A stretch of DNA of 64,000 nucleotides from Pholiota molesta (taxonomy: Eukaryota > Basidiomycota > Agaricomycetes > Agaricales > Strophariaceae): positions 45,750-109,749 of the forward strand of contig JACGCK010000151.1 of assembly GCA_014925825.1 (NCBI GenBank). Reading direction: 5' to 3'. Below are positions 9,346-64,000 of this stretch, in pieces. How positions within the stretch are numbered: position 1 is the stretch's first letter; every line of letters starts with the position of its first letter. Below the pieces are notes generated by a model. The model worked only from the letters and a program-made list of their open reading frames with translations. It searched no databases and was not told the DNA's origin. The translations under genes and the position numbers were made by a program.

Positions 9346-9434
9346 GCATCAGCAAATCTTGGTTTTGGCATTAGCAACAACTAACCCTCACGGCCAACGC
9401 CAAAGCAGCGGAATCCCAGATTAATAAACTAAAG

Positions 9435-38490: not shown

Positions 38491-39139
38491 GATGGTGGTG
38501 GTGAATGATGATCGATTGATGACGCGGCCAATCTACATAGAGAGAGATAATGTGACCGTTAGCGCAGCATTTGTGGGACCCCGTGTTTTGCGTGGTCTTG
38601 CACCTGTCGCAAGTCAGCTTTGAGCGCTTGAGCTCCAACCCTAATTGAATGTGCTTTTGTCTATTTGAATCAGATATAATGGTGTCATTTTATCTCATTG
38701 CAAAGTAGGCGACGGTCGCAACATGTGTAGGCGCGCAACATACCCACTCGAACGAGACCAACCGGACAAGGATATGTCAATCAGGGATGATATGAACACG
38801 AATAAGAACGCAGAATGGATAATTCTGTCCGGTGTGCTTTCTTTCTCAAGACGAATCAGGCCCGAATCTCAGATACTTGCCGAGGAAGAACTGAAGCCCG
38901 AAAACATAGAAAGCGGGGTAGACTCAGAATCAAGAGGGCTAAGTTACTAAAGGAATGTTAATGTTATAAGCGATTTCCCGAAATGAAATGAACATACTAG
39001 TAAGAAATTAGACCTTCGTCCATGTTTCCTTGCACTGGATGGCGATGAGAGAGCTAACAAGTTGAAGCCGTTCGACAATTAAATGTTTATAAATTACTTA
39101 ACGGGAGTCGACATCTCGAATCTAAAACATATCCACCCT
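38491..39139. other. Intergenic region
   Basis: Promoter side of the UCH gene and 3' flank of the S10 gene. No further gene is seen. Confidence 0.4.
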
Positions 39140-40137: not shown

Positions 40138-40459
40138 GTGGTGGTCGTGGTTCGGAGTAAAAAGATTCGGACTTTCCCACGGCGCCTATCCGGTCTTCAT
40201 GCTCTCTTCGCTTTCGCCACTTCAGATCCAATATTCAAGCTCAAGCTCAAGACAACCGTCTAAAAAATCTGTAATTGGAACAAATGCCTTCAACCCGGCT
40301 TCCAATTGCAGTTATCCTGTGCGCAGCATCAGTTTTTGAATTTTAAACTGTCTGCACCCAGTGGCCACGTTTGAAATGATTTCCAGGATTATCTCCTACT
40401 TACCTTTGGACTCAGCATCGTCTCCTATATTATTTTCGCTCGAACGGCGCATTAATATC

Positions 40460-41681: not shown

Positions 41682-43000
41682 TACCTATGGCAAAGTCAAA
41701 ATTTTCGCTACGACATCATGGAGTAGAAGGCCCTGTACGCACAACTCGTCACCCTTTGGCAGCCTTCCCCGATTCTATGGAGCTCGTTACTGTCCTGTGC
41801 TTGCTGTCGCCTGTAACCTGTCTGGAATAAACTTTGGTATAAAATTTTTGAGGATGGCTCCTAGCGAAGGCTGTTCTTCACTCTATCCTATGATCAATGC
41901 CTTTCTATAACAAGCGCCACCGTTACCTGCCTGCTGTCTGAGCCAATCTCGGAGCCCCTCGCTTTTCGCGTCGCTTTGAGACGCTGGCCCCTATGCTTTC
42001 ACTTTTATTTATCATGTCTGTGCTTGGGCTTGTGATACGAATTATGTTTCTGTTTCTTGTCAATAATAAAAGGATGTTTGGGTTGAGCACGGTTAACCGG
42101 CGAAGAGCTGTATCTTGTATCTTTTTTTGTTCATATACCAAACTGTACCGATGCACTGAACCCCCTTTTTTGTAGAGGTCACTGCGCCACGGCGGCTTGC
42201 TCAACATCTAACACTGAAGGGCCTTGGTTGCATCGCAATGCGAAGTTAGAACGAGAAGACCTTAATGAACTTGTAGATTTCCTCAAGCGCTCTCATGGAA
42301 GCCCGTCAACGATTGAGAGTTTCCAGATCAATTGCACGCGAATATTGGAGGAAATTTGCAGTCGTCTGGGTTAGTTCTAAGAACAGAAGTTTGGGAAAGT
42401 ATCGCGTAAGACCATGAGAATGGGCGAATTTGTTGTAATTGTATGATCCAGCGGTACGACGTGATATCAGATGAGCCCTATTGGCTATAAATGGAGAGTG
42501 CACCCCGTTGGAAGTTGAGTATGGAGGACTCGAGAGGATCGGTAAGGATGTAAACGGAAGTCAGGATCTTTCTTTTGGATGATGTCGTGAAAGTGGAAGC
42601 AGTAGGTAGCTAGAAGTTCTGAACGATTCAGAGAGGAGTGGTCGAAAAGGGTTGCGCTAGCTTACCAAAAATCTAAAGCCGAGCGCTGAGCGAATTTCCG
42701 AACTTAATGAAGGAGAAAATTGGCAGAGGAAGAGCAGGAATGCGCTGGAATGCGTCATACGGTCTAAAGCTTGTATTTTGCGTCTCAGGATCCATCCGAA
42801 TTTGCCGAAGATGATAAGATTAGATTATGTACATGATCATTGCTGCTGGTGCTCTCATTTTACGTATACTCAGATTTTACTACATACTAGTAAGTAGTAT
42901 CTACCGACGTTCCCTAATCAGCGCTCAACCATGATGAGTACTTAAGCGGGTATAGCAATTCCACAACCGTTTTTTCTGCTTTTTTGCAAATTCTGCTGAC
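41682..43000. other. Intergenic region, no gene recognised
   Basis: A/T-richer sequence with only short, composition-driven frames. Confidence 0.35.
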
Positions 43001-43089
43001 TGCCTTCCTTGAATAATTGAATTATAGGGGCAGGTAGAAATTTGCGCTTCTACTTGCGCACTTTCACTACCCTGCGGTGCATGGAGGCA

Positions 43090-43760
43090 TGTGGTGACGG
43101 CTATCAGACCAGGCCCACGACCACGACAAACGCATACGATGACAAGCACCCTTGTGAGCCACGATGACAACGAACGAGCAGGGCGCGCACCCCTCCATCT
43201 GCCCTTCGCAAGCCCTCGTTCGTTCACCCACCGCCACTCTCCTCCATCCGTCGACGACGAACAAGCTTTGGAGCTCGTTCGCCTGTGGACGGGCTCACTT
43301 CTGTCGCTCCCGCTGCCCACGTTCGTCCACCCGCCACCACTCTCCTCCGTCAGTCGATGACGAATGAGTGATCGTTCGTCCACCTTCAGGCCTTCAGGAC
43401 TCAGCCTTTTTACACCCAGCATTCTCCTTCGTTTGTCCCGTCCGGGTTCGCTTCCACGCTACCCTCGCGAGCCACGTCGACGACGCTCGGTCATCCACCC
43501 GCCGCCACTCACCTTCGTGTCCGGGCCTGCTTTCGTCGTACGCACTATCCTCGTGGGCCACGACGACGACAAACCACCGCTGTTCTCTGTCCATCGGGCC
43601 CCGCCTCCATAGCCTCCTTCCATCGCCCCGCTACCCCCGCGGACCATCTGCCTGTCGCCGCCCGTTTCCCCTGTCCCTCTTCTCTGTACCGCTACCTGTC
43701 GCCCTCCTGACTCCGGCGTCTTCTAACCCCGCCAACCCTCGAAGCCACCGCCCGCATCCA
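43090..43760 (+). repeat. Degenerate CCACCGCCACTC-containing repeat region
   Basis: Variants of TTCRYCCACCSGCCRCCACTC recur at about 43215, 43325 and 43490, each near an ACGACGAN or GTCGATGAC motif. Both strands are open for long stretches, which reflects the repeat and GC bias. No protein family is recognised. Confidence 0.4.
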
Positions 43761-43879
43761 ACCCATCCATCATCAGGGTACGTAGGCTGACCTCCTGATT
43801 CATTCATTTGCACTCAAACTGATCTGCATTGCTACTCTTTACTGCATGTCGCGAACAACAATGTACAATACAGGCACCT

Positions 43880-44030
43880 TGCAGGAGGAGTGCACGAGTT
43901 TATTTCTGCGATCCCGACTTCTCCGAGAGGGAAACTTCTCAGGCGCGTGTTGCGTGACCGTGCAAAGGAGCCGCGAGCCCCGTCGTTGAAGGCGAAGGTG
44001 ATGTTATAGTTTCTAAATCTTCTTCTATTG
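43880..44030 (+). repeat. Direct repeat copy 1 (copy 2 at about 45655-45810)
   Basis: AAACTTCTCAGGCGCGTGTT, GGAGCCGCGAG and GAAGGCGAAGGNGATGT occur in the same order at both places, enclosing the hAT-like element and the gene at 44825-45474. Confidence 0.65.
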
Positions 44031-44178
44031 TTGTCGCATATGTAGTATAATAACGTCGGTGTTTACAATCAGAAGGTGCAATTTGAACTATGTAAGATAA
44101 TTCTCTTCCTATAGGATTCCTGAATGTTGAACGACATGATTCGAATTCAATTGTAAATTACCGAAATCTCCTCAAGCT

Positions 44179-44792
44179 TAGTGATGTTATGGTTTGGCCT
44201 GGAAGCCAGAAGCCAGGCCAAACCAGGCCATGGTAGTCAGGCCAAAGCCAAGCCATGGACTTGGCTTAGGTTGGCCTATGGCTCTGGCTTGAGATTTCCC
44301 AAGCCAGAAGCCATGGCTCAGGCCATGGCTTCATAGACAATGAAGTCATGTGATTTTGGCACAAATATTGCCCAAAATCATGTGATTTTGGTACAATTTT
44401 TGGCCAAAATCTTGGTAAAAAAAGTCAAATAGTCTGCATTACATTGGTTTGGGATTTTTTAAAATATCAAAAAGGCTCTTTTGGCAAGAATCAAATTTTA
44501 TCTTGAGGTCACTGATTGAAATCTTATCCAATTCTACTCTAAAATAACTAATAAATGGTTGAAAAGAACTAAAATCAGTATAAGTTATTTTAAAATCTAT
44601 TATTTGTTAATATATTTTGGGGGAATAGTAATAGGGGCTGATTTGCCCACAGGCCATGGCCTGAGCCAGGCCAAGCCAAGACCAAGCCAAGGCCAAAGTG
44701 TTTGGCTCTGGCTTGGAAAAAGTCAAGCCAAAGCCATGAAAAGCCAGGCCAAAGCCATGGTTTCTAGGCCAAGCCAAGCCATAACATCACTA
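44179..44792. mobile_element. hAT-like non-autonomous element
   Basis: The ends are TAGTGATGTTATGG and its inverse CCATAACATCACTA, continuing as a longer imperfect inverted repeat rich in GGCYTGG/AAGCC. An 8-bp target duplication CTCAAGCT flanks it at 44171-44178 and 44793-44800. The 8-bp duplication and TAGTG start fit the hAT superfamily. The interior is A/T-rich between two blocks dense in AGCCA/TGGCT and CCATGG motifs. No transposase is encoded. Confidence 0.75.
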
Positions 44793-44824
44793 CTCAAGCT
44801 TGATCAAGCTTAACCTCTCCATCT

Positions 44825-45474
44825 TCAATGTACAAACCTCCATTCTTGGTTTTCTAACGTCATAGTCACCCCGCTCTGCATGAAGTACCCATTTCCATTA
44901 TCTTCAATTGACCGGCCTTGAATATCGCAAGCGATCACATTCTGGTACGCAAGCTCGAATACACACCGCAGCGACTGTATTTCCTCCAGAGCTGAATCTG
45001 TTTCCTCCGGATCTGAATCTGTTTCCTCCTCTATTGTGCAGACAAATATGCAGCTGTCGTCCTCTATGCTTTCCTTGTCAAGCACCAGGAAGCACTGTGA
45101 CGTGAAATTATCCGCGCCTGGCTGGTTGATATTTGTGATGAACCAATCATGCACTTCCTTGAGAGAGAGGCCGAGAAAGGCGGTAGGAGACGAGCTCATA
45201 ATATGACTCATAGGATGAGAAGATCCTTGGGTGATAGTAGCGATATCTTTGGTGTCCATGATAACAAGATATTCGGATGCTTCAAAAATGTCGTCGCTTG
45301 GCGAATTGATTTCCGAGAGATACTCTTCGGTGCATTGTAAGAGGAGATCTAGGGTCTGTAGAGCAAGAATGGAGGAAAATGACACTTTACACAGCAATAA
45401 ACCAGTAATTTTCTCTGACTTACGGTAAGTGGGATATCAGCGATACAGAACACGGGGCAACGGTCCATGGTCAT
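44825..45474 (-). CDS. Hypothetical protein (193 aa)
   Basis: Two exons (45474-45424, 45355-44825) splice in phase from MTMDRCPVFCIADIPLT to ENQEWRFVH. The protein is acidic, with an EEETDSDPEETDSALEE tract and a mixed alpha/beta look (EYLVIMDTKDIATITQ; CFLVLDKESIEDDSCIFVCTIEEE). No family is recognised. The reading frame is clean and lies between a hAT-like element and a direct repeat, so it may have moved as part of the repeated block. Confidence 0.5.
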
Positions 45475-45654
45475 GGTGGCAGGAGGTGAACCGGTGAAAA
45501 CTTAATAGAATGGACCCACAGATCAATGATACGAACCTCACGTGCATATTATTCCACGCACTTCATGTTAAACTTGTGTTAAACGCAATTATGCAGGACA
45601 AGTCGAACGCAAGTCGAGCGCAAACGCAGCTTTGCGCAAGATAAAGTGCGAATG

Positions 45655-45810
45655 CAGGAGGGGTGGAGTTTATCTCTACGATTTCGTCGAGTGCGAAACT
45701 TCTCAGGCGCGTGTTGCGCGGCCGTGCAATGCCTAAGGAGCCGCGAGGCCTGTCGTCGAAGGCGAAGGCGATGTGATAATGTCTAAGTCTTCTTCAATGA
45801 AGAGCTCGTG
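45655..45810 (+). repeat. Direct repeat copy 2 (copy 1 at 43880-44030)
   Basis: See copy 1. This copy includes the same GCGCGTGTTGCG and AAGGAGCCGCGAG segments with a few substitutions. Confidence 0.65.
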
Positions 45811-47066
45811 GAGCGAAAGGCTTTTGGCGATCTATTGGCCAAGTCTTTCGGCGGGATTTTGGAGGTATGATATGATCCATCATGTCCGCAATTTTTAATG
45901 TAAGTATACTGCTAGGCTGCCTATATAATTTACTGCCGTCTGCAAGGCTACTTATCGAATTTGAGGTTTACTTCACAAACGAAACGATCAATCTAAAACA
46001 CGCCTCAAACGATGCAAAGATTGCCCGAAAGATTGGGTGGTTGTTCTTATTTAACAAGTATCTTTGCAGAGTGCTTCAAAGATCTCTCGCGTTCTAGGTC
46101 CAACCATTGCTTGACTCTGGCAGGGCCATTTCCCTACTCCGAGAGTCCGAGAGGCTAGGCCTATCAGCAAGTTTTGAGGAATTGCATATATATAACATAT
46201 ATCGAGGAACTATTCTCAATTGAATCGGTAGCGCGAGCTTGGCGCAAGCGCGCAACTAGCAGGAGCGCAGATTCCTAGGTTCGGCAGGCGTTTTTTGAGG
46301 CGTCCACCGACTTCTCCATTTGCTTTCCTTTCCCTATACATGTGAAGGCCTCCGTCCGCAAATTAAGAAATCGCAAGGAAATTGAATGGATTTTCTGAGT
46401 TTATGAAATCACGGGCTGCAGAACCAAACGACTGGTTTCTTTTCAATAAGTACATTGATCTGGTCTTGATCTGGTCCTTCACCGGCAGCCTGTGAATGTG
46501 TGGGGCTTCCAATGACTTGATCGATTGATCAATTTAAAGTATATCCCTTCAACGTCAACATTTGCCAATTATTGGACGAAATACAGCTACCTGCAAAACG
46601 AAATCTGTATATGTGCATCTTCATCTTCTCTATAATATAGAAGAAAGTATCAAGTCTGACTCTGCCTCGGATTGCCTCGGCTTTTGCTTCCAACCTTCAA
46701 GCTTCAAGCTTCAAGTTTCACCGTTTGCTCTATTGCTAACATTGATTCAGGCACCTCTACCTCCGAAGCGCTACACATATACTTATGGCGTCAAACTAGT
46801 GGTTACTAGGCCGGAGGTCCAGTGTTTGACAACATTACATATAATGTCACTTGAACGTTAATTGAACGTAAGCTGGTAATTCGAGCAGCGTTGTTCCTGA
46901 AGGCAGGGTCGCACCGAATTATCTGACAGCTGGTGCGCCAGCCATCTGCAGGCCCAGTCGACTGTCCACCATTCAAGTTGGATCGCAACCACCTTCTATA
47001 TAGCCCTCTTCCTTGCTGGCGGTCCTCCGCCAACACTCGCCCGACAATTTAATGACTAGCCAACGC
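45811..47066. other. Intergenic region, no gene recognised
   Basis: Only short frames. A CTTCAAGCTT tandem lies at about 46694-46715. Confidence 0.35.
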
Positions 47067-48903
47067 ATGAATTCGAACGAAATGAACACTTCAGTAAATC
47101 AGATACTGTTCCCTGGTGATACGGTTCTAGCATACCTTGCGCGTAAGTTGTTCTCAGTCAGCTTCCTAGCCAGTCAATTAATCATTTGATTTTTATCTCT
47201 GCCAGTTGCAGGAGCTACATGTCTGATCTACGACCATCGTGCGTCTTTTTCTTGGCTTTTGGACTTTACTCAATCATTGTATGCGATGTCTCTATCATCA
47301 TAGTGACAACGCTTGATATTGAGGTTCGTAATCTTTTATTGCACTCTTGGTGTAGCTGTCACTCATACCTTTTCGACTTTGTAGATTGAGATAATTTGGG
47401 AACGTCTTTCCTTCTAGAAGATGTCATTGTACTTACCTAGTGGGACTTCAGAACCGACCGCGATGGCAAGTTCCTCAAGCTCTATTCATCATAGTAAGCG
47501 GTGCATTTGCGCGCGTTTGTAATGTCCAGTATTCATTTATCTCATTCTATGGACAATCAGAATCGATATGTCGGCCTTGCCTTGCAAATGTACGTCCTCG
47601 TTTGTAAAACCGCTTGTTGGGACGTTTACCAGAGGTTCATACAGCTACATTGCTTCATGTGCGTCCTTCTTTGTTGCGTCGCGTATCATCAAACTCATCA
47701 AAACCCTTCAGTCTTTATCAGTAATTTGCTGGGCGAATCTACCGAGGTCAGAATTACATCTCGTTTGCCTCCATCTCTCTCCTTTCATGATTGATCTCTT
47801 CTGGTGTACTATCAGAGATACGAGTAAGTAAATTTGCGTACTTAAGAAAGCGAGCATTGATATAATTTTACTCACCCCTTCAGCTGTAAGTCAACTTCGG
47901 TTCGCATTTAAACACTACCTTATATGAATTCCTGTGCTACGTTAATCAAGGTGCAACCTTCAACCTTATTAGCGGGTTCCTAACAGCTGTGATATTCTTC
48001 GCAATGCATGGTATGAAATCAGACTTGAACTATTTCTGATTCTTTGAGTTCTAATATTGTGATAGGTATTATGGTATATCGTATTTCGAGCATGTACACG
48101 CATGATCGGAAAATTCTGCGGATCCTCATCGCGGCCTATGTGATAGAATTTCTCTCTGTCATCTTCATTCAATTGGTACAAAAGATGTACGGCGCAAATG
48201 TCAATGACATAGGTAAGCTTTTGCAACGTATATCCGCTGAATAATTAATGGATTTGCATCCCAGAAACATTCATCCAGGTTTCTGTTGCCTTCTGTGCGA
48301 AAGAGAAGAATACGCCCTGGATCTTCGTTGTTTGGATTCCCTTGATTTTATTTGAATTCCTCATATTCGGTCTTGCTTTGGCGCTCGGGATCGAGTACTA
48401 TCGTGTAGTTGGGAACCGCTGGATGTTCTCGGAGTATCGAAATTCTAAGAGGAAAACACCTCTGCTGTATATACTTGTCAGGGATAGTATAACCTTTCCC
48501 TGCATGTGAGTCCTGTCCTCTTCAATTATCACGTAGCCTCGCTTATAATTCTACAAAAATGTAGCTTTTCATTTTCATGTATTGTCAACTTAATTATCTG
48601 TTTACTGGCTGCGCACGGGCTGAGGGTACGTTTAGACGCTTTTTTCATTATCAAATTCTCGTCAACCTTTCTTATCTATCCTAATTTAGCAAGTCATAGC
48701 TCACATAGCTTCTCTGTTTCCTTCCGTCCTATCCGTCATTTTGGGATCGCGACTCATTCTTAACTTACGAGAGGCATACTACGAATCGTACGATTCAGAA
48801 TTCAGCATTCACATAGACACCTCAATACTCTTGGAAAGCAATGGAGGCGGCATCCCATTTCCTACACTAATACCACTTTCAAACCTCCGCATACCCACTA
48901 GAC
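47067..48903 (+). pseudogene. DUF6533-type multi-pass membrane protein, probably degenerate, with its 3' end at the KDZ element
   Basis: The start MNSNEMNTSVNQILFPGDTVLAYLA splices to AGATCLIYDH and then LTTLDIEIEIIWER, the signature opening (YDH..TLD.E...IW) of the DUF6533 family. A TAG follows soon after (about 47416) in the natural frame. Later exons keep family features: MVYRISSMYTHDRKIL, WIPLILFEFLIFGLALALGIEYYR, LLYILVRDSITFPCI and LFPSVLSVILGSRLILNLREAYYE, i.e. several membrane helices. The terminal frame runs on into the repeat of the KDZ element from 48904, so the native C-terminus may be replaced. The stop suggests inactivation, although an unrecognised intron could remove it. Confidence 0.5.
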
Positions 48904-50127
48904 CCAGCCACTTTCGTGCAATAACTAATACTATAGTAGTAGCTGTCTATTGCAGTTTCCACTACAGCTGTAGCGCGCGTCTTGGGGTTGTGCAAGATGT
49001 ATGAGTTGTGCAACAATAACTCAGGTCACTCCCACTACAGCTGTAGCGCGTACTGGAGGGTGTCTTGGGGTTGTGCAAGACATATGAGTTGTGCAATAAT
49101 AACTCAGGCCACTCCCTTTGCGGTTGTGCAATACTAGCATCCCAGCCATGCTGCTTGCCGCCGTGCGCACAGCCACGCGCCCTTGATGCGCCTTATGTTT
49201 TCCTCCCTAGCTTATAAATAATCCAAGTTGGCGCCGGTTCATGACACTGCTTTGGGAACCAAACTGTTCATTGCACATAGCGGGCCACGTTATGCCGCCC
49301 ACATTGATGCCGCCAGTCCGCCTGTATTTCTATTCGCATTCCCCATCCCTTCCCCTCACTCCAACCATGTGTTTAACTAGCACCTTGGTTATGCTTTAAT
49401 AATCAGTAGTACTTAGATTGAATAATAGAGAGAGAAAGAAAGAAAATGCTGTGATATTTTGAACAGGATCTAAATATAACAGGTAACCTGACAATTGTGC
49501 AATACCCGGGCGAGTGAGATCGATGAGAATTGTGCAAGACTGATGTACTGTCATGCGCCGCGCCCCCTAGCCGTTGTGCAATAACTGTCCGGGCAGTTGT
49601 GCAAAATGTACTACAGTGTGCGAGCATGCCGTACCGTTGTGCAAGACTACCTGTACTGTCATGCGCCGCGCCCCCTAGCCGTTGTGCAATAACTGTGTGG
49701 ACAGTTGTGCAAACTGTACTGCAGCGCGCAAGCGCACACAGCATTTGTGCAAGACTGCCGTACTGTTATGCGCCGCGCCTTCTAGCAGTTGTGCAATACT
49801 GCAACACTGGCCGTAATGCCATGCGCCGTGCCCCCTAGCCGTTGTGCAATAACTGTCCAGACACTTGTGCAAAATGTACTACGGCGCGCGAGCACGCTGC
49901 GCAGTTGTGCAAGACTGCCGTACTGTTATGTGTCGCGCCCCGTAGCCGTTGTGCAATAACTGTCTGGACAGTTGTGCAAAATGTACTGTGGCGCGCGAGC
50001 ACGCTGCACAGTTGTGCAAGACTGCCGTACTGTTATGTGTCGCGCCCCGTAGCCGTTGTGCAATAACTGTCTGGACAGTTGTGCACACTGTACTGCAGCG
50101 CGCAAGCGCGCACAGCATTTGTGCAAG
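48904..50127 (+). repeat. Left terminal inverted repeat of the KDZ element
   Basis: Collinear with 62777-64000 in reverse. The outer ~580 bp hold two copies of a CACTACAGCTGTAGCGCG unit and AAATAATCCAAGTTGGCG-type sequence; the inner part enters the TTGTGCAA array. Confidence 0.85.
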
Positions 50128-51190
50128 ACTGCCGTACTGTTATGCGCCGCGCCTTCTAGCAGTTGTGCAATACTGCAACACTGGCCGTAATGCCATGCGC
50201 CGTGCCCCCTAGCCGTTGTGCAAGACTGCCGTACTGTTATGCGTCGCGCCCCGTAGCCGTTGTGCAATAACTGTCAGGACAGTTGTGCAAACTGTACTGC
50301 AGCGTGCAAGCGCGCACAGCATTTGTGCAAGACTGCCCGTACTGTCATGCGCCGCGCCCCCTAGCCGTTGTGCAATAACCGTCAGGGACAGTGGTGCAAA
50401 ATGTACTGCAGCGTGCAAGCGCGCACAGCATTTGTGCAATACTCCAGTGTTGCCATGCGCCGCGCCTCCTAGCAGTTGTGCAATAGTGAAATACTGCCCG
50501 TAATGCCATGTGCCACACCCCGTAGCCGTTGTGCAATAACTGTCAGGACAGTTGTGCAAACTGTACTGCAGCGTGCATGCGCGCACAGCATTTGTGCAAG
50601 ACTGCCCGTACTGTCATGCGCCGCGCCCCCTAGCCGTTGTGCAATAACCGTCAGGACAGTGGTGCAAACTGTACTGCAGCGTGCAAGCGCGCACAGCATT
50701 TGTGCAAGACTGCCCGTACTGTCATGCGCCGCGCCCCCTAGCCGTTGTGCAATAACCGTCAGGACAGTGGTGCAAAATGTACTGCAGCGCGCAAGCACGC
50801 ACAGCATTTGTGCAATACTCCGGTGTTGCCATGCTCCGCGCCTCCTAGCAGTTGTGCAATAGTGAAATACTGGCCGTAATGCCATGCGCCATGCCCCCTA
50901 ACAGTTGTGCAATAGTGAATTACTGCCCGTAATGCCATGCGCCGCGCCTCCTTGCTGTTGTGCAATAACTGTCCAGACAGTGGTGCAAAATGTACTGTGG
51001 CGTGCGAGCACACTGCATAGTTGTGCAATACTCCCGTACTGCCATGCACCACACCTTCTTGCCGTTGTGCAATAACTGTCCAGACAGTGGTGCAAAATGT
51101 ACTGTGGCGCGGGAGCACGCCGCACAGTTGTGCAAGACTGCCATACTGTCATGCGCCATGCCTCCTTGCTGTTGTGCAAGACGTGTACCT
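49490..51190 (+). repeat. Left subterminal tandem array of TTGTGCAA units
   Basis: Repeats of roughly 105-110 bp. Each contains several copies of TTGTGCAA in one orientation, spaced by conserved segments such as GCCCCCTAGCCG, TGTACTGCAGCG and ATGCGCCGCG. Long frames on both strands (Cys-rich on one) come from the repeat structure and are not genes. Confidence 0.85.
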
Positions 51191-51254
51191 GCCTGAAGCC
51201 TGGAGACGTCATCTCTGTAGACAACCTCTGTAAACACTTCAAAGGGCCGCGTAA

Positions 51255-51420
51255 CTATTAGAAGTCAAGATAAACAAACACTTTCATTAGTACAACATAC
51301 AGATACTGACAAGATAATACAAGATAAGTAACATCAAGATAGCGGAGAGATATTACATGAAAATAAGATAGCGTCCATAGATCTACAAGATAAACAGAAG
51401 ATAACATCTACAAGATAAAG
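51255..51420. repeat. Cluster of AAGATA motifs
   Basis: CAAGATAA, AAGATAG and close variants occur about eight times in some 165 bp between the TTGTGCAA array and the 3' end of the 854-aa gene. No frame is present. Confidence 0.45.
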
Positions 51421-51515
51421 AAGGCGTCAAGCAGTCACAGTCGAGTCAGATTCATAGCGTTCGAGCACTATAGATTATGACAATGAGCTGAGGAAAACCC
51501 AAAACAAGACAGAAC

Positions 51516-54415
51516 TTACCGCTTTGAGCTGCCTTCCTTTCCTGCTGTCGTCGCTTTTCTTTTCGGTATAACCAATGTTGCAGCAGCAATCGCATGCAGA
51601 GATTCCTTGACATCCAGCACCATTTTCTCCCACTTATCAGTACTATCCTCCTGATAGGGTGTGCGGTCAGAAAGGGCTTGCCCCCACCACACCACTAATG
51701 TCATAACAGAAACTAAGCCGTTTGGACCACTCCTTTTTAGAGCATCCCAAAGTGAATCGTTGCTGGCCACGTAAGAGGGGGAGGGCATGTCATCGGCGCT
51801 CTGACGGAATTCCGGTTGCATCGCATGCCACCACTTCACGACCGCAACTCCAAATTCAGCAGAATCGGCGATGAGCGGAATGGCGTCATAGCGACGATTT
51901 CCACTGCGCGATTTGGCCACCCACTTTGTCCACTCATCCGGACGAACAGATACAGCAGGTAGGGCACCCTACAGAGGAATAAGTTATCGCTGATCATCCA
52001 AACCAAATGCTGTGACTTACCTTAGTGTCACCGTTAGCCAGGGTCATTTCCAGCGCAAACCACTCTTCAACGCATGCTTTCCAATCCTCCCCGAGATCTC
52101 GCGAGAGAAGATGGGCTTTTGCAAGTAAAGCCCATGGAGCAGGTTCCAAAGGAGAGACGTTTTCTTTACCGGGCACCACGACCTTCCCATTTTCACCGAT
52201 CATGTTCGACAGTTCGGCGCGCTTTGAAGGAACAACTGCCCGTCCAGATCGAGAGCGACGGGCAGCCTCTGCACCCGTGTTGTGCAAATCAGTGACGTCC
52301 CCTGGGCCCGGTGGTGCTGAAGGTGGAATGTCCATGGTGGTAATGTCTACGGAAGCAGCCTGAGCAGACGCTGGCACAGATGGTGTTGTAGGAGTCGGTT
52401 CTGCTTCGGTCGGAGCTGGCATACTTGGCGCAGGACCCGTGTAGGTTCCTGTTCCATCGACTTGGTTGACGGGGGGAAGGACGAGCTGACCTGGGTAGGA
52501 TCCTGTTGGCGGGCTTGGATGAGAAGACATAAAGATGTCTAAAGCGTTGCTAGGCTGAGTGTCGTCCATAGCGGGCAGAAAATTTGGGTCAAACGGCGGC
52601 TGAGAAGTGTTATCCCAGATATCTACCAAAAACCAGTGTTAGATATACATCAATCGATCTAAATTGCCAGACGTACTAGGGTTGCCCATAGACTCAAGCC
52701 CAGATTGAGTCGTGCCATCCCAAGGGGTAATTTTGGCAGCTAAAAGGGCTGCATAATTGTTCGTGAACTGAGTCAATTGAGGTCCGCCATTCCAAGAGGT
52801 GGTTCCACCATCCACCGGGCCAGCATATGCACTGGCATTGCCATACTCAGCAGGGTTACTGTTACCGTACCCGTACCCCATCGAATTAATGTTGAGCTGT
52901 GGGAAGGGCTGTGAGATCCCATTCCAAGTGGTGGAAGTTCCACCCGCTAACGAGCCTGCGAGAGGATTCCAGGGTGTAGGTGTCGACTGAAGCGCGGAAT
53001 GGGGTACAGCACCCCAAGGCATGGTTCTCGGTGCTGTTGATGTCGCATGAGGGTGACCCTGCAGGGCCGAAGCCACCGATCCGCCGACGTGTTGTGCAGA
53101 ATGTGTATGAGGAACGGTGGAGCTCTGCACGATAGTAGGAGCTTGGAGGCCAGAGGCCTGGAATGGTGATGTGGTGGCGGTGGAAGAGACTGTGTACGGG
53201 ACAACACGGCCCGCATTCAAGTTGGGCATTCCTTGTGGCGAGGTTAATAAACATAAAATGCAAAGAATAGAATAGGTAATGTACCTGTGTCGCGGGATTC
53301 GTCGATCTCATCGTCGCCACTGTCAGTACCTTTGAAGGCAGGAGCGTCACGATAGACTGATTCGAGAAATTCCTTGAAAGGCGCGATACAGTTCACATTG
53401 AAATTTGGGGTCATCTCAAAGGTCGAGCCAAGGGGGGTCATTCCTTTGTGGTAACTGGTAAAGAAACTAATGAATTTTGTGGTCCACAACTCCAGAACGC
53501 AATTTACAAACCTTGCAACCGCTATTTTCCCATTAGCGCTAGGATGGGGCCCACCCATCAAAACTGAAAATGACCATCCAGTTCGTTCGGCAAGTATACC
53601 CATGTGCGTGTTAAGATAATCCCCGGCCGCCTGAATAGCCCTTTGTGCGATAGTTTAATATAAGAGCAAAAAAACACGAATAGATTTCCTCGCTTACTTG
53701 AGATACTGCTCCGGAGTCTTGTTCTCAATTTGATTGAGTGTTTCTTCCTCCTTGACTCGTGCTTCCTCCTGTATCATCGCCAAGATTGCAGCCTTGATGT
53801 CGTCAGGTTCTGCGTCGTACAGTTCCTTGGATGCTTGCTTAACGGCTATAAGAACACCACCCTTGGGAAGCTTGCCGTCGATCGCCGCTGCCTTCATCTC
53901 TGCAAGTAGCTGATCCTTACGTTGCTTTATCTTGATCGTATATAGACCGCACTTAGAATACATCTCAACTGGTTTGAGAGCACGTTTATTGTCCTTGGGC
54001 TCTTTGAATATCGTCTCCGAGCGACCTGTGCGTCCCTTTCTGCCGCCTACTTTACCAATCATGCTGGCTTTCCATTGGTACCATCGCTTGAGTTGCTACA
54101 TTAAATTGTACGCATCAGTACCAATTGAAACAGTGAAGGCAAGAATACCACACATACATCGAACCGAGCTGCAATCGCTTCTGAAAGCTTGCATGCTTGA
54201 TCATCGCTCAGATCTGATGCTAAGGCTATGTTGGGAAACAAGGTCTTGATCTCCGGATATACCTTAAACCAAGCCTCTTTCAGCTGGGCCCAAAAAATGT
54301 CGTATTTGGATATAGGCCTGCTATGAATCTCAAAATATTCAGGCCAACGCGCTGCTAAAAATTCTCGCTGCTCTGTGGTTGTCCAAGTACTTGCATTGGA
54401 GTTGTTGTCGCACAT
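51516..54415 (-). CDS. KDZ-element accessory protein (854 aa), function unknown
   Basis: Seven exons (54415-54158, 54095-53698, 53640-53512, 53454-53285, 53231-52677, 52622-52021, 51968-51516) join in phase. The N-terminal ~130 residues (WTTTEQREFLAARWPEYFEI, FWAQLKEAWFKVYPE, RWYQWKASMIGK) are rich in Trp and aromatic residues in a Myb/SANT-like spacing, perhaps DNA-binding. A Lys/Glu helical region follows, then a long Pro/Ser/Thr/Gln linker with RRSRSGRAVVPSKR. The C-terminal domain has DWKACVEEWFALE, WTKWVAKSRSG, VVKWWHAMQPEFRQ and GPNGLVSVMTLVVWWGQAL. From memory this C-terminal pattern recurs in agaricomycete hypothetical proteins. It is transcribed divergently from the gene at 54764. 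Confidence 0.7.
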
Positions 54416-54763
54416 CTTATAATAATAAATTAGGACATTGTTCACATAAAACCATAGATATATCTATATCATATGTGCTCACCGGTACGGCCGAGTGACT
54501 CAATGGAGTTCGGTTAGATTAGGTTCCATCGTGTTGCTCTTGTGCAAGAGATCAATCAGTGCCGTGGTTCGGCATCCACAATTTGTCGGAGATTGTTGTC
54601 TTGTCCAATAAAATTTGTTCGAGTCGCCTCACGCTGCTAATTAACTGTACAGTACATTGCGTATTTATAATCAAGCCACCGAACTCTATAATCCTGCACA
54701 TGGTAGTGGCCAATAATAGCCAGTTATTTTTCAAATTACCAGCTCACTGTAGACGTATAATCT

Positions 54764-55745
54764 ATGTCTTCCAGCTCCGTAGCTCCCGAGGCCGACATTG
54801 TTGCCGAACCTTTTTGCATCGTTGGTGAGTATTATGATATTTATGATCTCCGATTCCATTCTAGATCTAAGCGATGCCCCCCCAGGATGCCCGATGGAGA
54901 CATCACTCTCCATTAGGGGCGTTTACGGTATGTTATTTATAAATGACATCAAACATATGTGCTAATGTTGATATGTAGTTCCCGGTTGTCCGAAGCATGA
55001 CTTCCCCTTTGAAATCGTCACCGACAACGATCTTGCATCTCTTCCCATATACCCTACTGTCCATGGTACCCCCACTATCTTGCAGTGTGCTCTAGGTACT
55101 TGCATCGTCCTCGCGGGCAACACACATGTCCCTGACAGCGAAACCACTGTCTTCCGTACCCCTCCCGGGACCGTTGTGTTCCTCAGGAACCTTTCATTCA
55201 CGCCACCAGCTACCCCAGCTACCCCAGTACGGAGGAGTCGTGTACCCTCTCCTGAAAACCCTCCGACCGATGCTGCCGCCGTGCTAGCCACTTCTGGTAG
55301 AGGAACCCCTCCAAACAGTCCAGGCATGCCTCTTTCTGTGCTTTCGGAGCCTCCAGACAGCCCACTCACCATACTTTCAGCATTGGGTGGCGAAGCGCCA
55401 ACAGCGGCCGAGATCGAAGCAGCAGAAATAACAGCTGCACTAAAAGCCGCAGAAGAGGAGCAGCAGGAATGGTGCCGCCGAGGTGAACTTGCGCTAGATG
55501 ACCAAAACCATGAATCCGCACTCAATGTCGAAGCGGCTGAGGAATTCTGGGCCGCAATCGAAGCTGGCCCTCCCTGTCGCCCCAACTGGTACGATGGGAG
55601 TTGGGGCGCTGGTCCCGAACTTCGTGACTCCGAAGAAACAGAATCGGAGTATATGCTTCGCATGGTTGATGAGATGGAAGCTGAGCGCGAAGAGATGGAA
55701 GCTATGGCAGCTGTCGAAGCTGAGCGCGACGAGACGGGAGCCTAA
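54764..55745 (+). CDS. KDZ-element accessory protein with Ala/Glu-rich helical tail
   Basis: Three exons (54764-54824, 54886-54927, 54979-55745) give 289 aa, all in phase 1. The N-terminal part (MSSSSVAPEADIVAEPFCIVGCPM, PGCPKHDFPFEIVTDND, TILQCALGTCIVLAGNTHVPDSE) has spaced Cys and looks beta-rich. A Pro/Ser-rich linker leads to long Ala/Glu helices (AAEIEAAEITAALKAAEEEQQEW; MVDEMEAEREEMEAMAAVEAERDE), probably coiled coil. No known domain is recognised. It shares a 349-bp divergent promoter region with the 854-aa gene. Confidence 0.6.
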
Positions 55746-56711
55746 AATGTTTGAATTCTAGTTGTAATCTATATAATTTCTTGTAATATTTATCCCGCAA
55801 ATACAATGTTCATGTGGTACAAATTCAACCAATTGAGAATAGCGAACCTAGTGTAATAAATCTGTCAAAGGTGTCTTTCATGAAATTTGTCGGAGTTGTC
55901 TCATGACGTTCCAAAAATATCAAAACATATCGCTGGTTGCGCAATTCAGAAGTTGGAATTGAAGTTTGAAGTTTAAGATTACAATGAGTCGAAAATCTGC
56001 TTCTTCTGCGGCAAGTTGTAGGGTGTTAGAAAATGTTTTTATAATAACAACCCAAAGGTTACTGAAATACGCATAAAGTGGCTCTGGAACAGCTAAGGGA
56101 TCTTAGACGAATACTACACTCCAGCAAGCGCTTCCCGAGATTATGCTATATGTTATGTGTTAGCTCCTAAAAACTACATATTTATGTAGAGGATTGCATT
56201 ACCTACCATTCTCCATAATATAAGAGGATGGGAGGTGATAATACGGACGCTAGATAACATTCTTATGTCTGATCTACTATTTTCAGTATCTTTCTATTCA
56301 CTTTCTGATTGGCTGCTGAGGGCGGCAGTTTCGAAATATGAGTATTGTGGCAGTTTTATAATTATTCTGACTACCCAGGAAGTTAGGTAGTGCACTTCAT
56401 AGGCTTCGTGCAAAATTTCAAGGCCTAATGCCTTAAAATGAGTGGTGTACATTGCTGGTATTGGTTTTTTCAGCAGATATCTATCAATTCACTGATTGGT
56501 CAAGTCGCGGTTCTGTGTGCCAAATTTAGATTCCTGAGTTGCTGGCTGGGGACTTCGACGATTCTTCAACTATACAGTTAATTTCGGGGCTGCCGCCGGT
56601 GGGGCTTAAGCCTTTTCGTAACTGTCTACCACGCGCACTGAGAGATTAAGAAATTACGGTATGCTCATATATTTTTATTGCCGCTGAATTACATTCATTA
56701 CAACTTTAAAG
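55746..56711. other. Non-coding interior of the KDZ element
   Basis: A/T-rich, without a supported gene. Confidence 0.4.
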
Positions 56712-57031
56712 ATGACTTTCACTGCGCAAGAAATCCGTGCGCTCAAACATTTGGCGCCTATGTACAAGGCTATTGCGCATGAAGGGGAAGAAAAAAGGAA
56801 GACTTTTTTCGAGTGTGCATATCATATCTGGTTTGACTATTGTCCGATGCCCCGCCCTATTGACATGGACAAGGAAGAGTTTGAGCGGCTTAAGGAAAGG
56901 AGGAAAAAAGTGTGTATTTTGATTTCTCCACAGCTGACGAGCTCGGCGCCATTCTAACAAACATTCAGTATATTAGGCATTCTTTGATCTGGGCAGATTT
57001 TGCATCGATGAGACGTTTGACAGAAATGTAG
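56712..57031 (+). CDS. Small KDZ-element protein (86 aa), function unknown
   Basis: Two exons (56712-56909, 56969-57031) splice in phase: MTFTAQEIRALKHLAPMY through ERRKK, then YIRHSLIWADFASMRRLTEM. The protein is helical and charged. The intron is 59 nt with a GTGTGT donor and CAG acceptor. It converges on the minus-strand gene that ends at 57050, only 18 bp away. It could be a truncated relic, but no lesion is seen. Confidence 0.45.
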
Positions 57032-57049
57032 CTTTTCATTCCGAGACAT

Positions 57050-57768
57050 TTACCATCGAGCAGTATATAGACATGTGAAGGCATAATCTACACGTCCCTT
57101 TTTGACTGCTTTCCAATCTTCCAATAGATCAACAACTCGTCGGGCTTTCCATTGCATCTGGTGTTCCCCCATTTTCCGATCAACATGTGAAAGGTTCGTG
57201 CCATCGAGAATATGTTTGAGCTCTTCCCATGATGTAAGGTAGGTATGGATATCGCGGTCAATCTCTTGCAAGATTTGTGTGTCGGTAGATTTCTCGTAGC
57301 GTTGGAGGCGGCAGGCTTCGTACTGATACTGCTCACGTAGGCGCCTACCATGAACACGATCAATGATAGCATCCAATCCTCCACCACCAATTGAACCGTG
57401 GGGTATATGATAAGGGGGATAAAAATCCCATTTTGCAAGCACATCATCATCGGAGATTTCTTCGCGGGTACGATATTCTAAGAGAAAAAAATGGGATTGG
57501 CGTGGAAGAGGAAGGGCAGCCTGCTGACGGAGAGCGCGAGGGATAGCAGGCCATGTCGGTGCCAGTTTACTCTTGTTTTCTGTTCGTCGCTGATATGCGC
57601 GCTTGTTCTGCTCGCGTCGAAGTAATTTAGCTCTGTATTAATTTTTAGGTTGTGAGACACCAAGATATGGACTACAACATACCGCTCTGTCTGAGAATAT
57701 TTTTGTTTTTGTTCTTGAGATGCTTTAAGTCGTTCCTCTACGGTTGCATATTTAGATACACGTCCCAT
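57050..57768 (-). CDS. KDZ-element protein with basic N-terminal region
   Basis: Two exons (57768-57683, 57632-57050) give 222 aa; an in-frame ATG at 57795 would add nine residues. The N-terminus MGRVSKYATVEERLKASQEQKQKYSQTER joins RAKLLRREQNKRAYQRRTENK, a strongly basic helix that resembles a bZIP basic region in composition, without a clear leucine zipper after it. The rest is helical (AIIDRVHGRRLREQYQYEACRLQRYE; MGEHQMQWKARRVVDLLEDWKAV). Transcription diverges from the transposase gene with about 100 bp between starts, so the two probably share a promoter. DNA binding is inferred only. Confidence 0.6.
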
Positions 57769-57869
57769 TGTCTTGGAGGAAGGAGATTGAAACACAAAGG
57801 ATCGATCAGCTGTCAGTTGCAGACACGCATCAACAACTTCAACCCTGCCACAAGCTCTGAATTGCTACC

Positions 57870-60800
57870 ATGCCCAAGGCGTCCAAACTGTCATTTTATC
57901 ATGCGCCGCATATCCAGGAGGAGCCTAAAGAGAAGTACAAATACACTTCTCTCTCTGCAGATTCCTCAGGAAACCTGATGCGGAAAACATCAACACTAAT
58001 AACTGCTACACCTACACAAGCAGTTTCAAATCCCCCAGCCGATTTCAGTACCAGCGCCACGAGTTACAAGGTCTTTGATATTGACGAATCGGGCATGTCT
58101 GCTTTCCCCGACCCATTATTCGAACCAGCATACATTCAACATTTGGAGGAAATGGGCACAGACGAAACGATAAAAAGAGTTCGGCCGAAAGGGGTACGCA
58201 GATCTGTTTTTCTGGGATCATCATTCCTAACCGACTTATATATCTACAGGATGAATCACTTCGTGAATTTTTTCCTCAAATAGACATGTTTCTCGAAGAG
58301 CTGCTGTCGCTTGAGAGCCGCGGATGCTGGCCTACTGACGCATGTGCACGCTGTCAGGGTCATGGAATGGGCAGATATCAATGTTTTGAGTGTTGGGGGC
58401 GTGAAATGCTGTGCGCTGAGTGCATTGTAAAAGGCCACGAACGTTTATATCTTCATCGAATTCAAGTATGTTCTTCCTACATCTTTCGCTAACACGATTC
58501 TTATAAAAACGAACATTAGAAATGGAATGGGACATACTTTGAAAAGATATCCCTCAAGTCTCTTGGTCTGCGTAAACAACTGGGACATCCTCCTGGCGAG
58601 CGATGCCTAAATGCAGTTCATTGCTCTAATGATGATTTCGTTGTTCTTCATTCGAACGGGATGCATGAGATTGGCCTAGACTTTTGTGGATGTGGAGCAG
58701 GAAATCAATTAGCAAGTGTCCAATTGCTTCGTGCACGCCTCTTTCCTGCCACGCTCGTCAATCCCAAAACGGCTGCTACGATTGAGGTCTTGGATCTCTT
58801 TTCAATTCTGTCTTATGAATCCAAGATGTCGGCCTTTCAATTTTATCATTCTTTAAGTCGCTTAACGGATAACACGGGCATCAATACGCCGAAGGTAAGA
58901 TATTTTTCACTCATTGGATAGTCATCTCAACTTTGTTTTAGGATCGGTATCCTGCATTTCTTCGGATGGTCCACGAGTGGCGACACTTACTATTGCTTAA
59001 GCGAGCAGGTCGTGGCCATGACCCCACAGGAGTGGCCACTACAAAAGAAGGCGAATGTGCCGTGCTGTGTCCGGCCTGCCCTCAGCCAGGAAAAAATATG
59101 GCCGAGAATTGGAAGGAGCGTCCGGAGCATTTACGGTGTGTATATATTCGGGTATTCGGATTCTATATGCCTAACCCAAAGCCTGAGTAGATTCCTCGAT
59201 ACACTATTCATAGCAATCGATGCAAATTTTCGTCTGAAGCGCAAGAATGTTTCGAGTCATGAAGCAGATCCAGGTCTCAGCAATGGGTTTTCGTATTTTG
59301 TAGAAGACACGGATTACCGAACACATCTCAAGAATTATTCTTCTGAGATTGAACCCGTGAGTATTACGGTTGTGGTATTCTTCGCAGTTAAACTCATACT
59401 AGCTTCAGAAAAGCTCATGCTCACGTCATGATGCTGTGAACCTCTCGGAATCTAGGCCTGGGCAAGGGCATGCAGCAACTGGGGTTGGAGCTGTCGTATG
59501 TTCACGCCACGATATGAAACGGCCAAATGGGGTGGCTCAGCTCCAGAAGGGCGAAAGGTAATTGCTCTTTTATCATTGAGGTGCATTATTTTATCTCACA
59601 TCTATCGTAGGTATTGCAATATGGACTATATCTTCTACTCCACCTTGAAAACAACAGATGTCGAGAGATTTGTAATCTCGTACGACATCGCTTGCCAGTG
59701 GTCAATTCACCTACGGGCGCGGATGGCACGTTATAGTTCGGACTTTTTTATGTTCCAAGAGGGGCGTCGCATAACATACCTGGTTCCTAAATTCCATCTG
59801 CCGGCGCATGTGGCTAAGTGCCGGACCCAATTTTCTTTCAACTTCACAAAGAACGTTGGACGGACAGATGGTGAATCGCCTGAACGTGGGTGGGTCGGGC
59901 CTAATGCGCTGGCACCGAGCACCAAGGAGATGGGACCCGGCACATGTCGCGATACATTGGATGTCCATTTCGGCGACGAGAATCATAAAAAAGTTATCGG
60001 ACTAGGTGAGCACCATAAATTGTCACCAACAATACATTGCAGTAACACTTTCCTACTATCTTACTAGGTGATAGCTTGCTGCGAAAAATCTCGGCCGCAG
60101 CACGCGACATGACTGAACACATCACCGCCCATCGGCAGCTGGAAAGCACCCTTTCTAAAAGTGATATTGAACAATGGACGCTGGCTGTCGAAGCCTGGGA
60201 AGCTGATTCCTCTCTACCCAATCCGTTCGAAAACACCGTGTCAGGTATAGTTGTTGCTTTAGCTGTAGTTTGCTATACTAATTTGTATACTTGAAGGCCC
60301 TACTCAGGTGTCAGTTCGACGTCAACTGGCTGAAGAGGAACGACGTCAGCTTGAGCAAGGCAGAGACTTCTCGTTGGATGAGAAGGTGACGCCGAGCGTC
60401 CTGATCTCTATGGGAATCGACTTGGAAAACGAACAGTGAGCTCTTGTTTGGCTTATCGATGTCAATCCCCCATACATTCTCTATCTACAGACACATTTAC
60501 AAGGAAGCTTGCTCAAAGCTGTGGGAACACGCACTCGATCGGCAACACACAAAACTAGTACTTCGTGGGAGCACCTTGTTGCGAAAAATCGAGGCTTGGT
60601 CAAAATACCAGCTACTCTACCTTCCTGGGGTTTCAAGATTGCGGGAAAACTCTCTTCGTAGCTTGGATCCTAGCGTGGAGCTCAAAGCCCATGAACTGCC
60701 GCTCTGGTTACCCTCCCAAATCCGAAGCCAAATTCCAGTTCCACATGAATATCGTCGATTGGAGTTCGACCTACGAATTCCTCAAGCTGGCGAAGCACTC

Positions 60801-61588
60801 GACACTCTTCGAGCCCAACTTCAAGTGCGCGCTCATGTTTTCAAGTTCAAGGATCGCTTTGTTCGAGGTCAAGGTGCCAACACGCGTGCACGAAACACTT
60901 TGGAAGGGATCCAAAACCGAATCAACATGGCCGCGAATGAGTATCGTGTTGCGTATCAGGCTCTGTGTTGTTTGGGAGCATTGCTGGGTGAATCAGCATG
61001 GAAAAATGTGTTTTTGCCACTCAAAAACGATGATATTCGCGATCTTTCTGAAGGTAAGGCGAAGCAATCAGAAGGGAAGCGGGAAATCTCTTGGATATGG
61101 AGAACTATAGCTATCGATCAAGGCGACAAGCCTTATGAAGAACATTTCCGCGAAGGTTTGGGCATTTCTTTGTCGATAATTTTGTTTTCAATGACATTGA
61201 CTTGTTTATCTTGTTGGCTCTGTGCACTGTAGGTGTCCGGATCGAATGGGCAAAGTCTCGAGCCCGGGCTGATCGATTTACTGAAGAAGTCTCGCTGTTG
61301 ACAGAGGAAATGATGCGGGTACAGCGGTTCTTTGCGTGGAAAGCTAACGATTGGGACTCCAAGGGTGCGATTGTCTTAGAGTCTTCTCGTATGCCAGAGT
61401 CACCAATGCGGACTGAGGGGTGGATTGCCTATGCAAAACGTCAGGCAGCCATGTATAGAGCGCTGATCTTGCATTTTTCTTCTCTTTGGAAAGATGTTCC
61501 TGCTTATGTTGCCCGTATGGATGCTATTGTAAATGATCCAAGCATTGCACTGCCCGGTGAATTTGATACAACGAAGTCTGGTGTATAG
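57870..61588 (+). CDS. KDZ-family transposase
   Basis: Eleven exons (57870-58193, 58250-58465, 58520-58894, 58942-59135, 59191-59356, 59409-59557, 59611-60005, 60068-60244, 60297-60435, 60491-61155, 61233-61588) keep phase and give 1051 aa. A Cys cluster (CARCQGHGMGRYQCFECWGREMLCAECIVKGHERLYLHRIQ) and GLDFCGCG form the zinc-binding N-terminal part. The RNase-H-like core shows FIAIDANFRLKRK (first Asp), VISYDIACQWSIHL (second Asp), HVAKCRTQFSFNF and GESPERGWVGPNALA (Glu with the WxxxN pattern), all diagnostic of KDZ enzymes. A helical C-terminal region follows. The acceptor before exon 9 is AAG, less usual than CAG/TAG. No stop or frameshift was found. Confidence 0.88.
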
Positions 61589-61781
61589 ATAATTTGTAAC
61601 ATTGTCTACTCTTCTGATAAACTACAACTGCGCGACATGTATACAATGGCTCATATCAATTATATATTCATTTATCTTGACTTTAAAATCTTACGAGGCC
61701 CGACACAAGCAACATACAACTGGCGCGCCTTGGGTGCACGCATATAATATTGCACAACTCTAGAAAATAGACGTATGGTAA

Positions 61782-62171
61782 CTAAGGGTCTTCAGCTAAG
61801 CGGGGTTTACGAGTTCCAGCACCCAATCTTTTGGGACGGGTGGAGAAGGGTTTCCTTTCAATTTGGGGCTGGGTATTCAAGGCGCTGTCGGTTTGGATAT
61901 GTGAGCGACTTTCAGTCTGAGCATTGACGCAGAGACGGGCAATTTCTCTGCATAAAACAATTAGCTAAATCTTTCTAATAATAAAATGTGTACTGACTCA
62001 CTCGATCTGCTGGTATGTTAGAAAACTTTTGAAATCCCCAATCTCAATTCCAATGCCTATGTCCGACTCGATCACAGAAAATGGGATGGCTCCCAATGCG
62101 TCGTACACAGCATCATTGACATCTGCTTCAAAATCATATTGAAATGCATGGCAATAAAGACGAACAATCAT
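61782..62171 (-). CDS. Small KDZ-element protein with basic tail
   Basis: Two exons (62171-62002, 61947-61782) splice in phase to about 111 aa: MIVRLYCHAFQYDFEADVND...GDFKSFLTYQQIE, then EIARLCVNAQTES and a basic end (KPFSTRPKRLGAGTRKPRLAEDP). An upstream exon is possible (CTTTTCAAG acceptor at about 62178). No family is recognised. It converges on the transposase gene and lies between it and the right repeat array. Confidence 0.5.
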
Positions 62172-62274
62172 GAATACCTTGAAAAGACATGGGTGACGGT
62201 ATATGTAGTATATCAAAAGTAAGGAGAAATGGGGTACGGCCTACAATGGATGCAGGAAATGGTTTATTTCCATG

Positions 62275-63430
62275 TTATTGCACAAGTCTTATTGTGCGCG
62301 TTCACGCACCATAGTAAGTACACTGTAGTACATTTTGCACAACTGTCCTGACGGTTATTGCACAACGGCTAGGGGGTGTGGCGCATGGCATTACGGGCAG
62401 TATTGCAGCATTGCACAACGGCTACGGGGCATGACGCATAACAGTACGGCAGTCTTGCACAACTGTGCAGCGTGCTCGCGCGCCGTAGTACATTTTGCAC
62501 AAGTGTCCAGGCAGTTATTGCACAACGGCTAGGGGGCGTGGCGCATGGCAGTACGGGCAGTCTTGCACAAATGCTGTGTGCACTTGCGCGCTGCAGTACA
62601 GTGTGCACAACTGTCCAGACAGTTATTGCACAATGGCTACGGGGTGCGACGCATAACAGTACGGCAGTCTTGCACAACTGTGCAGCGTGCTCGCGCGCCA
62701 CAGTACATTTTGCACAACTGTCCTGACAGTTATTGCACAACGGCTAGGGGGCACAGCGCATGACAGTACGGGCAGTCTTGCACAAATGCTGTGCGCGCTT
62801 GCGCGCTGCAGTACAGTGTGCACAACTGTCCAGACAGTTATTGCACAACGGCTACGGGGCGCGACACATAACAGTACGGCAGTCTTGCACAACTGTGCAG
62901 CGTGCTCGCGCGCCACAGTACATTTTGCACAACTGTCCAGACAGTTATTGCACAACGGCTACGGGGCGCGACACATAACAGTACGGCAGTCTTGCACAAC
63001 TGCGCAGCGTGCTCGCGCGCCGTAGTACATTTTGCACAAGTGTCTGGACAGTTATTGCACAACGGCTAGGGGGCACGGCGCATGGCATTACGGCCAGTGT
63101 TGCAGTATTGCACAACTGCTAGAAGGCGCGGCGCATAACAGTACGGCAGTCTTGCACAAATGCTGTGTGCGCTTGCGCGCTGCAGTACAGTTTGCACAAC
63201 TGTCCACACAGTTATTGCACAACGGCTAGGGGGCGCGGCGCATGACAGTACAGGTAGTCTTGCACAACGGTACGGCATGCTCGCACACTGTAGTACATTT
63301 TGCACAACTGCCCGGACAGTTATTGCACAACGGCTAGGGGGCGCGGCGCATGACAGTACATCAGTCTTGCACAATTCTCATCGATCTCACTCGCCCGGGT
63401 ATTGCACAATTGTCAGGTTACCTGTTATAT
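62275..63430 (-). repeat. Right subterminal tandem array of TTGCACAA units
   Basis: The reverse-oriented counterpart of the left array, but shorter: after the shared part ending near 62777 it has its own order of units and stops at about 62275, where the left array runs to about 51190. Confidence 0.85.
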
Positions 63431-64000
63431 TTAGATCCTGTTCAAAATATCACAGCATTTTCTTTCTTTCTCTCTCTATTATTCAATCTAAGTACTACTG
63501 ATTATTAAAGCATAACCAAGGTGCTAGTTAAACACATGGTTGGAGTGAGGGGAAGGGATGGGGAATGCGAATAGAAATACAGGCGGACTGGCGGCATCAA
63601 TGTGGGCGGCATAACGTGGCCCGCTATGTGCAATGAACAGTTTGGTTCCCAAAGCAGTGTCATGAACCGGCGCCAACTTGGATTATTTATAAGCTAGGGA
63701 GGAAAACATAAGGCGCATCAAGGGCGCGTGGCTGTGCGCACGGCGGCAAGCAGCATGGCTGGGATGCTAGTATTGCACAACCGCAAAGGGAGTGGCCTGA
63801 GTTATTATTGCACAACTCATATGTCTTGCACAACCCCAAGACACCCTCCAGTACGCGCTACAGCTGTAGTGGGAGTGACCTGAGTTATTGTTGCACAACT
63901 CATACATCTTGCACAACCCCAAGACGCGCGCTACAGCTGTAGTGGAAACTGCAATAGACAGCTACTACTATAGTATTAGTTATTGCACGAAAGTGGCTGG
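62777..64000 (-). repeat. Right terminal inverted repeat of the KDZ element (cut by the window edge)
   Basis: Exact inverse of 48904-50127 in all parts compared. The match runs to the last base of the window, so more may lie outside. Confidence 0.85.

Follow-up and report, generated by a model that had tools for sequence, protein, structure and literature searches.

The window analysed here is a stretch of 64,000 nucleotides of the genome of the mushroom Pholiota molesta (Strophariaceae, Agaricales), positions 45750–109749 of contig C59, in an assembly of 65,580,286 bases on 625 contigs. At its right side lies an element of at least 15.1 kb, which spans from position 48896 to past the contig end and is composed of two inverted arms, at least 1.7 kb long, and an 11.1-kb core between them; the other DNA in the window amounts to 48.9 kb. 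The arms match as an inverted repeat at 48904–50133 (plus strand) and 62771–64000 (minus strand), with 0 mismatches and no indel in 1230 bp. This base-by-base comparison bears out the first-pass annotation, which had paired 48904 with 64000 in an inverted match without indels; its limit for the perfect match, about 50127/62777, was near the exact value of 50133/62771. BLAST carries the inverted match on to 50574/62320 at 95.4%. Inward of the perfect stretch, tandem arrays with a unit of approximately 107 bp continue in both arms in a different unit order, and through them the left arm (48896–51180, plus strand) reaches approximately 51180. The right arm (62320–64000, minus strand) is cut by the contig end. 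Because C59 (109,749 bp) stops at window base 64000, the pairing of 48904 with 64000 is dictated by the contig end, and neither the right terminus nor its flank is seen. The element is present as one copy in the assembly, and its best relatives show 69–73% DNA identity: contigs C311, C123, and C16 carry colinear sister copies in other flanks, and C66 holds a further relative.

The arms share a repeated motif, TTGTGCAA, with a strict polarity. It occurs 44 times in the left arm, all forward, and 33 times in the right arm, all on the minus strand (forward:reversed, 44:0 and 0:33), with 4 copies in the 11.1-kb core and 1 in the remaining 48.9 kb of the window. In 500 dinucleotide shuffles the left arm averaged 0.32 copies, with no more than 4 in any one, and the abundance observed is not due to chance. 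Since the array units arose by duplication, counts inside one arm are not independent, and the polarity common to subfamilies is the stronger argument. Three subfamilies share it (those of the window, C311, and C66), with matched DNA approximately 70% alike: in the C311 copy the forward:reversed counts are 17:1 for the first 1800 bases, 0:8 for the last 1500, and 1:1 for the stretch between them, and the right end of the C66 relative has 7:0 within 1.5 kb. Sixteen other loci (53,861 bases) contain one TTGTGCAA in total.

The core encodes a transposase (gene E, 57870–61588, plus strand), for which the end of the 1046 aa model was set at 61588. The model contains a CxC2 domain (133.9 bits versus a cut-off of 27, 3e-39) and a KDZ domain (PF18758; 215.4 bits versus a cut-off of 26.6, 1e-63), and is 99% identical to the deposited P. 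molesta protein P0001 over 89% of its length. These domains agree with the earlier claim of a KDZ element, and the transposase is apparently intact. The catalytic motifs that had been claimed have candidates in two aspartates and two glutamates, D260, D380, E443, and E446 (P0001 numbering), which are invariant across the aligned homologues (38 of 38). When the whole transposase was compared by Foldseek, no match was obtained at E ≤ 0.001 and the top entries were long-helix proteins. The catalytic region gave weak structural matches, and among the matches listed those to integrase and Tn7-type proteins were few relative to helical ones; a sequence search of the PDB with the transposase profile reached a best E of 0.47.

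Besides the transposase, the core holds up to four companion genes. Gene A (51516–54415, minus strand, approximately 814–840 aa) has an exon model based on conservation with the C311 copy, against which dN is 0.36 and dS approximately 1.8 (524 codons); no homologue of gene A was found at E ≤ 0.001 among 7997 scored candidates, sister copies included. Gene C (56712–57031, plus strand) has two exons encoding 86 aa, with 66% identity on 80 codons, a dN of 0.22, and a saturated dS. Gene D (57050–57768, minus strand), the divergent neighbour of the transposase, encodes 222 aa with a basic N-terminal part in two exons, a splicing pattern supported by the identity of the model to the deposited P. molesta protein P0121 over all 222 residues; its dN is 0.16 and dS approximately 1.8 (216 codons), and five homologues were found at E ≤ 0.001, two of them from P. 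molesta. The predicted fold of gene D is mostly helical at low confidence (mean pLDDT of 59) and has no PDB match at E ≤ 0.001, and the best E in a profile-based PDB sequence search was 0.25. The Pfam scan detected no domain in A, C, or D. Judged from the coding sequences, genes A, C, D, and E are under purifying selection. Candidate gene B, the main open exon of which lies at 54972–55745 on the plus strand, has no Pfam match and is 49% identical over 69 residues in the C311 copy. Accordingly, of the five spliced genes counted by the first-pass annotation, four (A, C, D, and E) have conserved counterparts in the sister family and B is weak.

Two introns of the first gene models, 52347–52424 and 61373–61417, are probably not genuine, and the selection analysis left both unspliced; the 814 aa version of gene A lacks 52347–52424, and the 1046 aa transposase keeps 61373–61417. 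Many small extra gene models within the element were dropped as noise. In the matched stretches of the C311 copy, gene D is in pieces across frames, E contains a single stop, and A contains two; these stops and frame breaks may be real, or may reflect intron read-through or consensus indels.

The left terminus was placed at 48896 (CACTAGACCC) by homology to the right terminus of the sister copies and by the break relative to uninterrupted sites. The left arm reads CACTAGACCCAGCC from this position, so that the left end begins with CA, and the putative left copy of a 7-bp target site, GCATACC (48889–48895, plus strand), lies directly before it. On contig C113, the counterpart GCACACC leads into host DNA without interruption. 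In reverse orientation, this contig is colinear with window 36500–48895 at 88–93%, with the exception of 42311–45796, and this homology stops at 48895; C113 also matches window 1–5347 at 86–97%. The two queried blocks lie on either side of 11501–36499 and together make up 23.9 of the 48.9 kb of host DNA. The C113 counterpart and five related tandem sites on the same contig are all uninterrupted (6 of 6 aligned sites), and the uninterrupted C113 site indicates that the insertion is derived. On the two blocks compared, C59 and C113 are probably, and most simply, two haplotypes of a dikaryon; they may instead be related by a large duplication. The insertion lies beside a tandem gene family (window approximately 46980–48895, C113:374432–392608), copies of which are 68–97% identical on C113, C50, and C623. 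Window segments 42311–45796 and 5348–11433 are absent from C113 and match repeats elsewhere in the assembly, and they are probably other insertions in the window haplotype; the latter looks like a further insertion because window 11434–11499 matches C113 directly beside the 1–5347 block.

The sister copies supply the ends that the window copy cannot. The three copies are near-identical and have CA..TG termini (CAGCCGTACC..GGGTCTAGTG); comparison of C311, C123, and C16 in pairs, over 13,961–13,981 columns, shows 2, 4, and 6 substitutions along with 18, 37, and 43 indel events, each 1–4 bp long. The contigs C311 and C123 end 25 bases short of the right terminus, at one shared position of the element, and C168 and C129 start with those 25 bases. 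Pairing of these flanks gave target site duplications (TSDs) of 7 bp, ATCGCCA..ATCGCCA and ATAACCA..ATAACCA, in two copies. As the flanks of the two copies were paired by the TSD match itself, the support lies in the exact agreement of seven bases in both. For the pattern CACAGCCGTACCAGCC, two mismatches gave 29 matches versus 26 for the reversed control, and only the 3 exact ones were used. A 5-bp TSD with CAC..GTG ends was tried and rejected, as the longer right flanks show 7 bp. C16 has the left flank of C123 (ATAACCA) and a different right flank (CGATGTT), and thus no TSD; since its left flank is that of C123 and the right 7-mer is unlike it, we take C16 to be probably a chimeric contig. 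The stretch C16:142281–156428 is indel-rich at the contig end. Across the assembly, 128 KDZ domain matches were counted exon by exon. Another KDZ group, at six sites on C332, C226 (two sites), C259, C612, and C62, scores almost equally throughout and carries a single TGA within the domain match; it is possibly another recently spread family.

The search for other copies and empty sites proposed by the first-pass annotation thus yielded the sister copies on C311, C123, and C16, the further relative on C66, and the uninterrupted site on C113. These bear on whether a transposon is present at all. The inverted match reaches the contig end with its right boundary unseen, as it would in a segmental palindrome of host DNA or an assembly artefact; however, the left boundary coincides with the break relative to 6 of 6 aligned sites, one of them the counterpart locus in the same assembly, and colinear relatives with 7-bp TSDs sit in other flanks. 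The host palindrome, which the earlier annotation had itself named as an alternative, is ruled against by these observations, and we consider it extremely improbable that the locus holds no transposon.

We searched for the right flank of the transposon in three ways. A homology search with the C113 continuation hit C113 and relatives of it (15 matches), in no case at the start of a contig. The pattern SKSYWGTGATACC, built on the rejected 5-bp TSD, gave 47 matches, the lowest at position 1022 and none at a contig start. The pattern KWCKRSTGGCATACC with 1 mismatch gave 103 matches versus 104 for the reversed control; among the 100 of 103 matches listed, the lowest position was 791 and none was at a contig start. 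A telomere as the cause of the contig end was rejected, as the 23 overlapping TTAGGG-array matches are spread over 10 contigs, C59 not among them. Because the right terminus and the right TSD are missing from the assembly, the element cannot be called complete with defined ends, as had been claimed.

Terminal inverted repeats (TIRs) of DNA transposons are copied as they stand and are not made identical upon insertion. The very recent insertion that had been read from the undiverged repeats is therefore not borne out, since TIR identity is no insertion clock for a DNA transposon; finding 0 differences in 1230 bp tells when the arms were last homogenised, or else results from a consensus that the assembly gave to both. 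This point is illustrated by the sister family. Judged by its copies it is recent (2–6 substitutions per approximately 13.95 kb), yet the arms of C311 are only 88% alike over 1013 columns within a single copy, so that the step from arm identity to insertion age fails. We therefore rejected TIR identity as an age estimate, and the case shows why it is unfit for dating DNA transposons. Recent movement holds for the sister family and is not carried over to the single window copy.

The origin of the perfect identity itself can be read in two ways. We lean toward arms that are truly identical, either because one recently converted the other or because the copy that inserted, also recently, had matching arms beforehand. 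At its left end the element carries the terminus type that the sister copies have on the right, which would fit overwriting of one arm by the other, although the real right terminus is unseen and the copy is single in the assembly. Alternatively, the element is real but its 1.23-kb identity was largely made by the assembly, which would have pooled reads from the two arms and ended the contig where the repeat is exited. C59 ends within 8 bases of the expected terminus, just as C311 and C123 stop at a common point of the element and C168 and C129 start at the next base; moreover, the sister copies show many 1–4 bp indels, as consensus noise would, and the window arms show none. Against this, the arms differ sharply inside 50133/62771, which implies that reads were told apart there, and we regard an assembly origin as somewhat unlikely.

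In the accessible part of one report, two Kyakuja families of Laccaria bicolor (Kyakuja-1_LB and Kyakuja-2_LB) have 7-bp TSDs, 5'-CA..TG-3' termini, and no TIRs, and Zisupton and a Dileera element have 8-bp TSDs (PMC12730594). The 7-bp TSDs and 5'-CA..TG-3' termini of our sister copies, the mushroom host, and the KDZ transposase resemble the former. In contrast, Kyakuja-1_LB and -2_LB, as described there, lack TIRs and encode a TET/JBP dioxygenase (PMC12730594), whereas the window element has a perfect TIR of 1230 bp and the scanned ORFs and gene models gave no Pfam match to TET/JBP, profiles that divergent PE-type enzymes can escape. As far as the available text goes, KDZ1, KDZ2, and KDZ3 of Cryptococcus neoformans were shown to move and are 9.2–11 kb long, with TIRs of 139–241 bp, TSDs of 4–8 bp, and CxC1 (PMC12810828); they share a cysteine cluster adjoining the KDZ transposase with the present element, which differs by an inverted repeat of at least 1230 bp, CxC2, and a length of at least 15.1 kb. 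In the portion of the report at hand, a CxC2 cluster precedes intact KDZ elements of Pleurotus ostreatus (PMC7641404), an arrangement similar to that seen here. We found no description of kilobase KDZ arms with motif arrays in the literature as available to us, supplements aside (e.g., the Marasmius KDZ TIR motif figure, PMC8290104). We conclude with good confidence that the window contains a KDZ-superfamily DNA transposon inserted in one of two P. molesta haplotypes; from the TSDs and termini of the sister copies, it most likely belongs to the Kyakuja lineage. Its arms and companion genes depart from known KDZ elements, and it is otherwise probably Kyakuja. KDZ elements are numerous in mushrooms, yet few seem to be described end to end in the literature accessible to us. 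The present case supplies a left terminus, 7-bp TSDs of sister copies, an uninterrupted site, a polar array in three subfamilies, and companion genes under selection.

In a cut-and-paste scheme, the transposase would cut both ends and join them to the target with a 7-bp stagger. The TTGTGCAA arrays would be putative sites bound by the transposase or by a companion protein, with gene D as a candidate binder, and may confer the inward polarity on each end. Conversion or unequal exchange would keep the arms alike, in which case their identity does not date the insertion. In the En/Spm (CACTA) elements of plants, a short motif is repeated beside the termini and bound by an element protein, and a soybean study has reportedly described subterminal repeats in such elements. 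The likeness would be one of working only: the En/Spm transposase is unrelated and the TSD is 3 bp, whereas here the transposase is KDZ, the TSD of the sister copies is 7 bp, and the repeated motif is a putative binding site. A comparable two-component recognition, in which the gene D protein binds the one-way TTGTGCAA arrays, the CxC2–KDZ transposase cuts the CA..TG ends, and the arrays turn over and are homogenised together as one unit, is a speculative and quite unlikely proposal. Direct binding and excision tests can now address end recognition by a KDZ transposase and the roles of the companion genes.

Elsewhere in the window, a 7.2-kb inverted repeat with 90.9% identity lies at 11512–18654 and 28465–35652. 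Its ORFs show weak kinase-, APH-, and DUF1679-like Pfam matches, and it may represent a gene block duplicated in inverted orientation.
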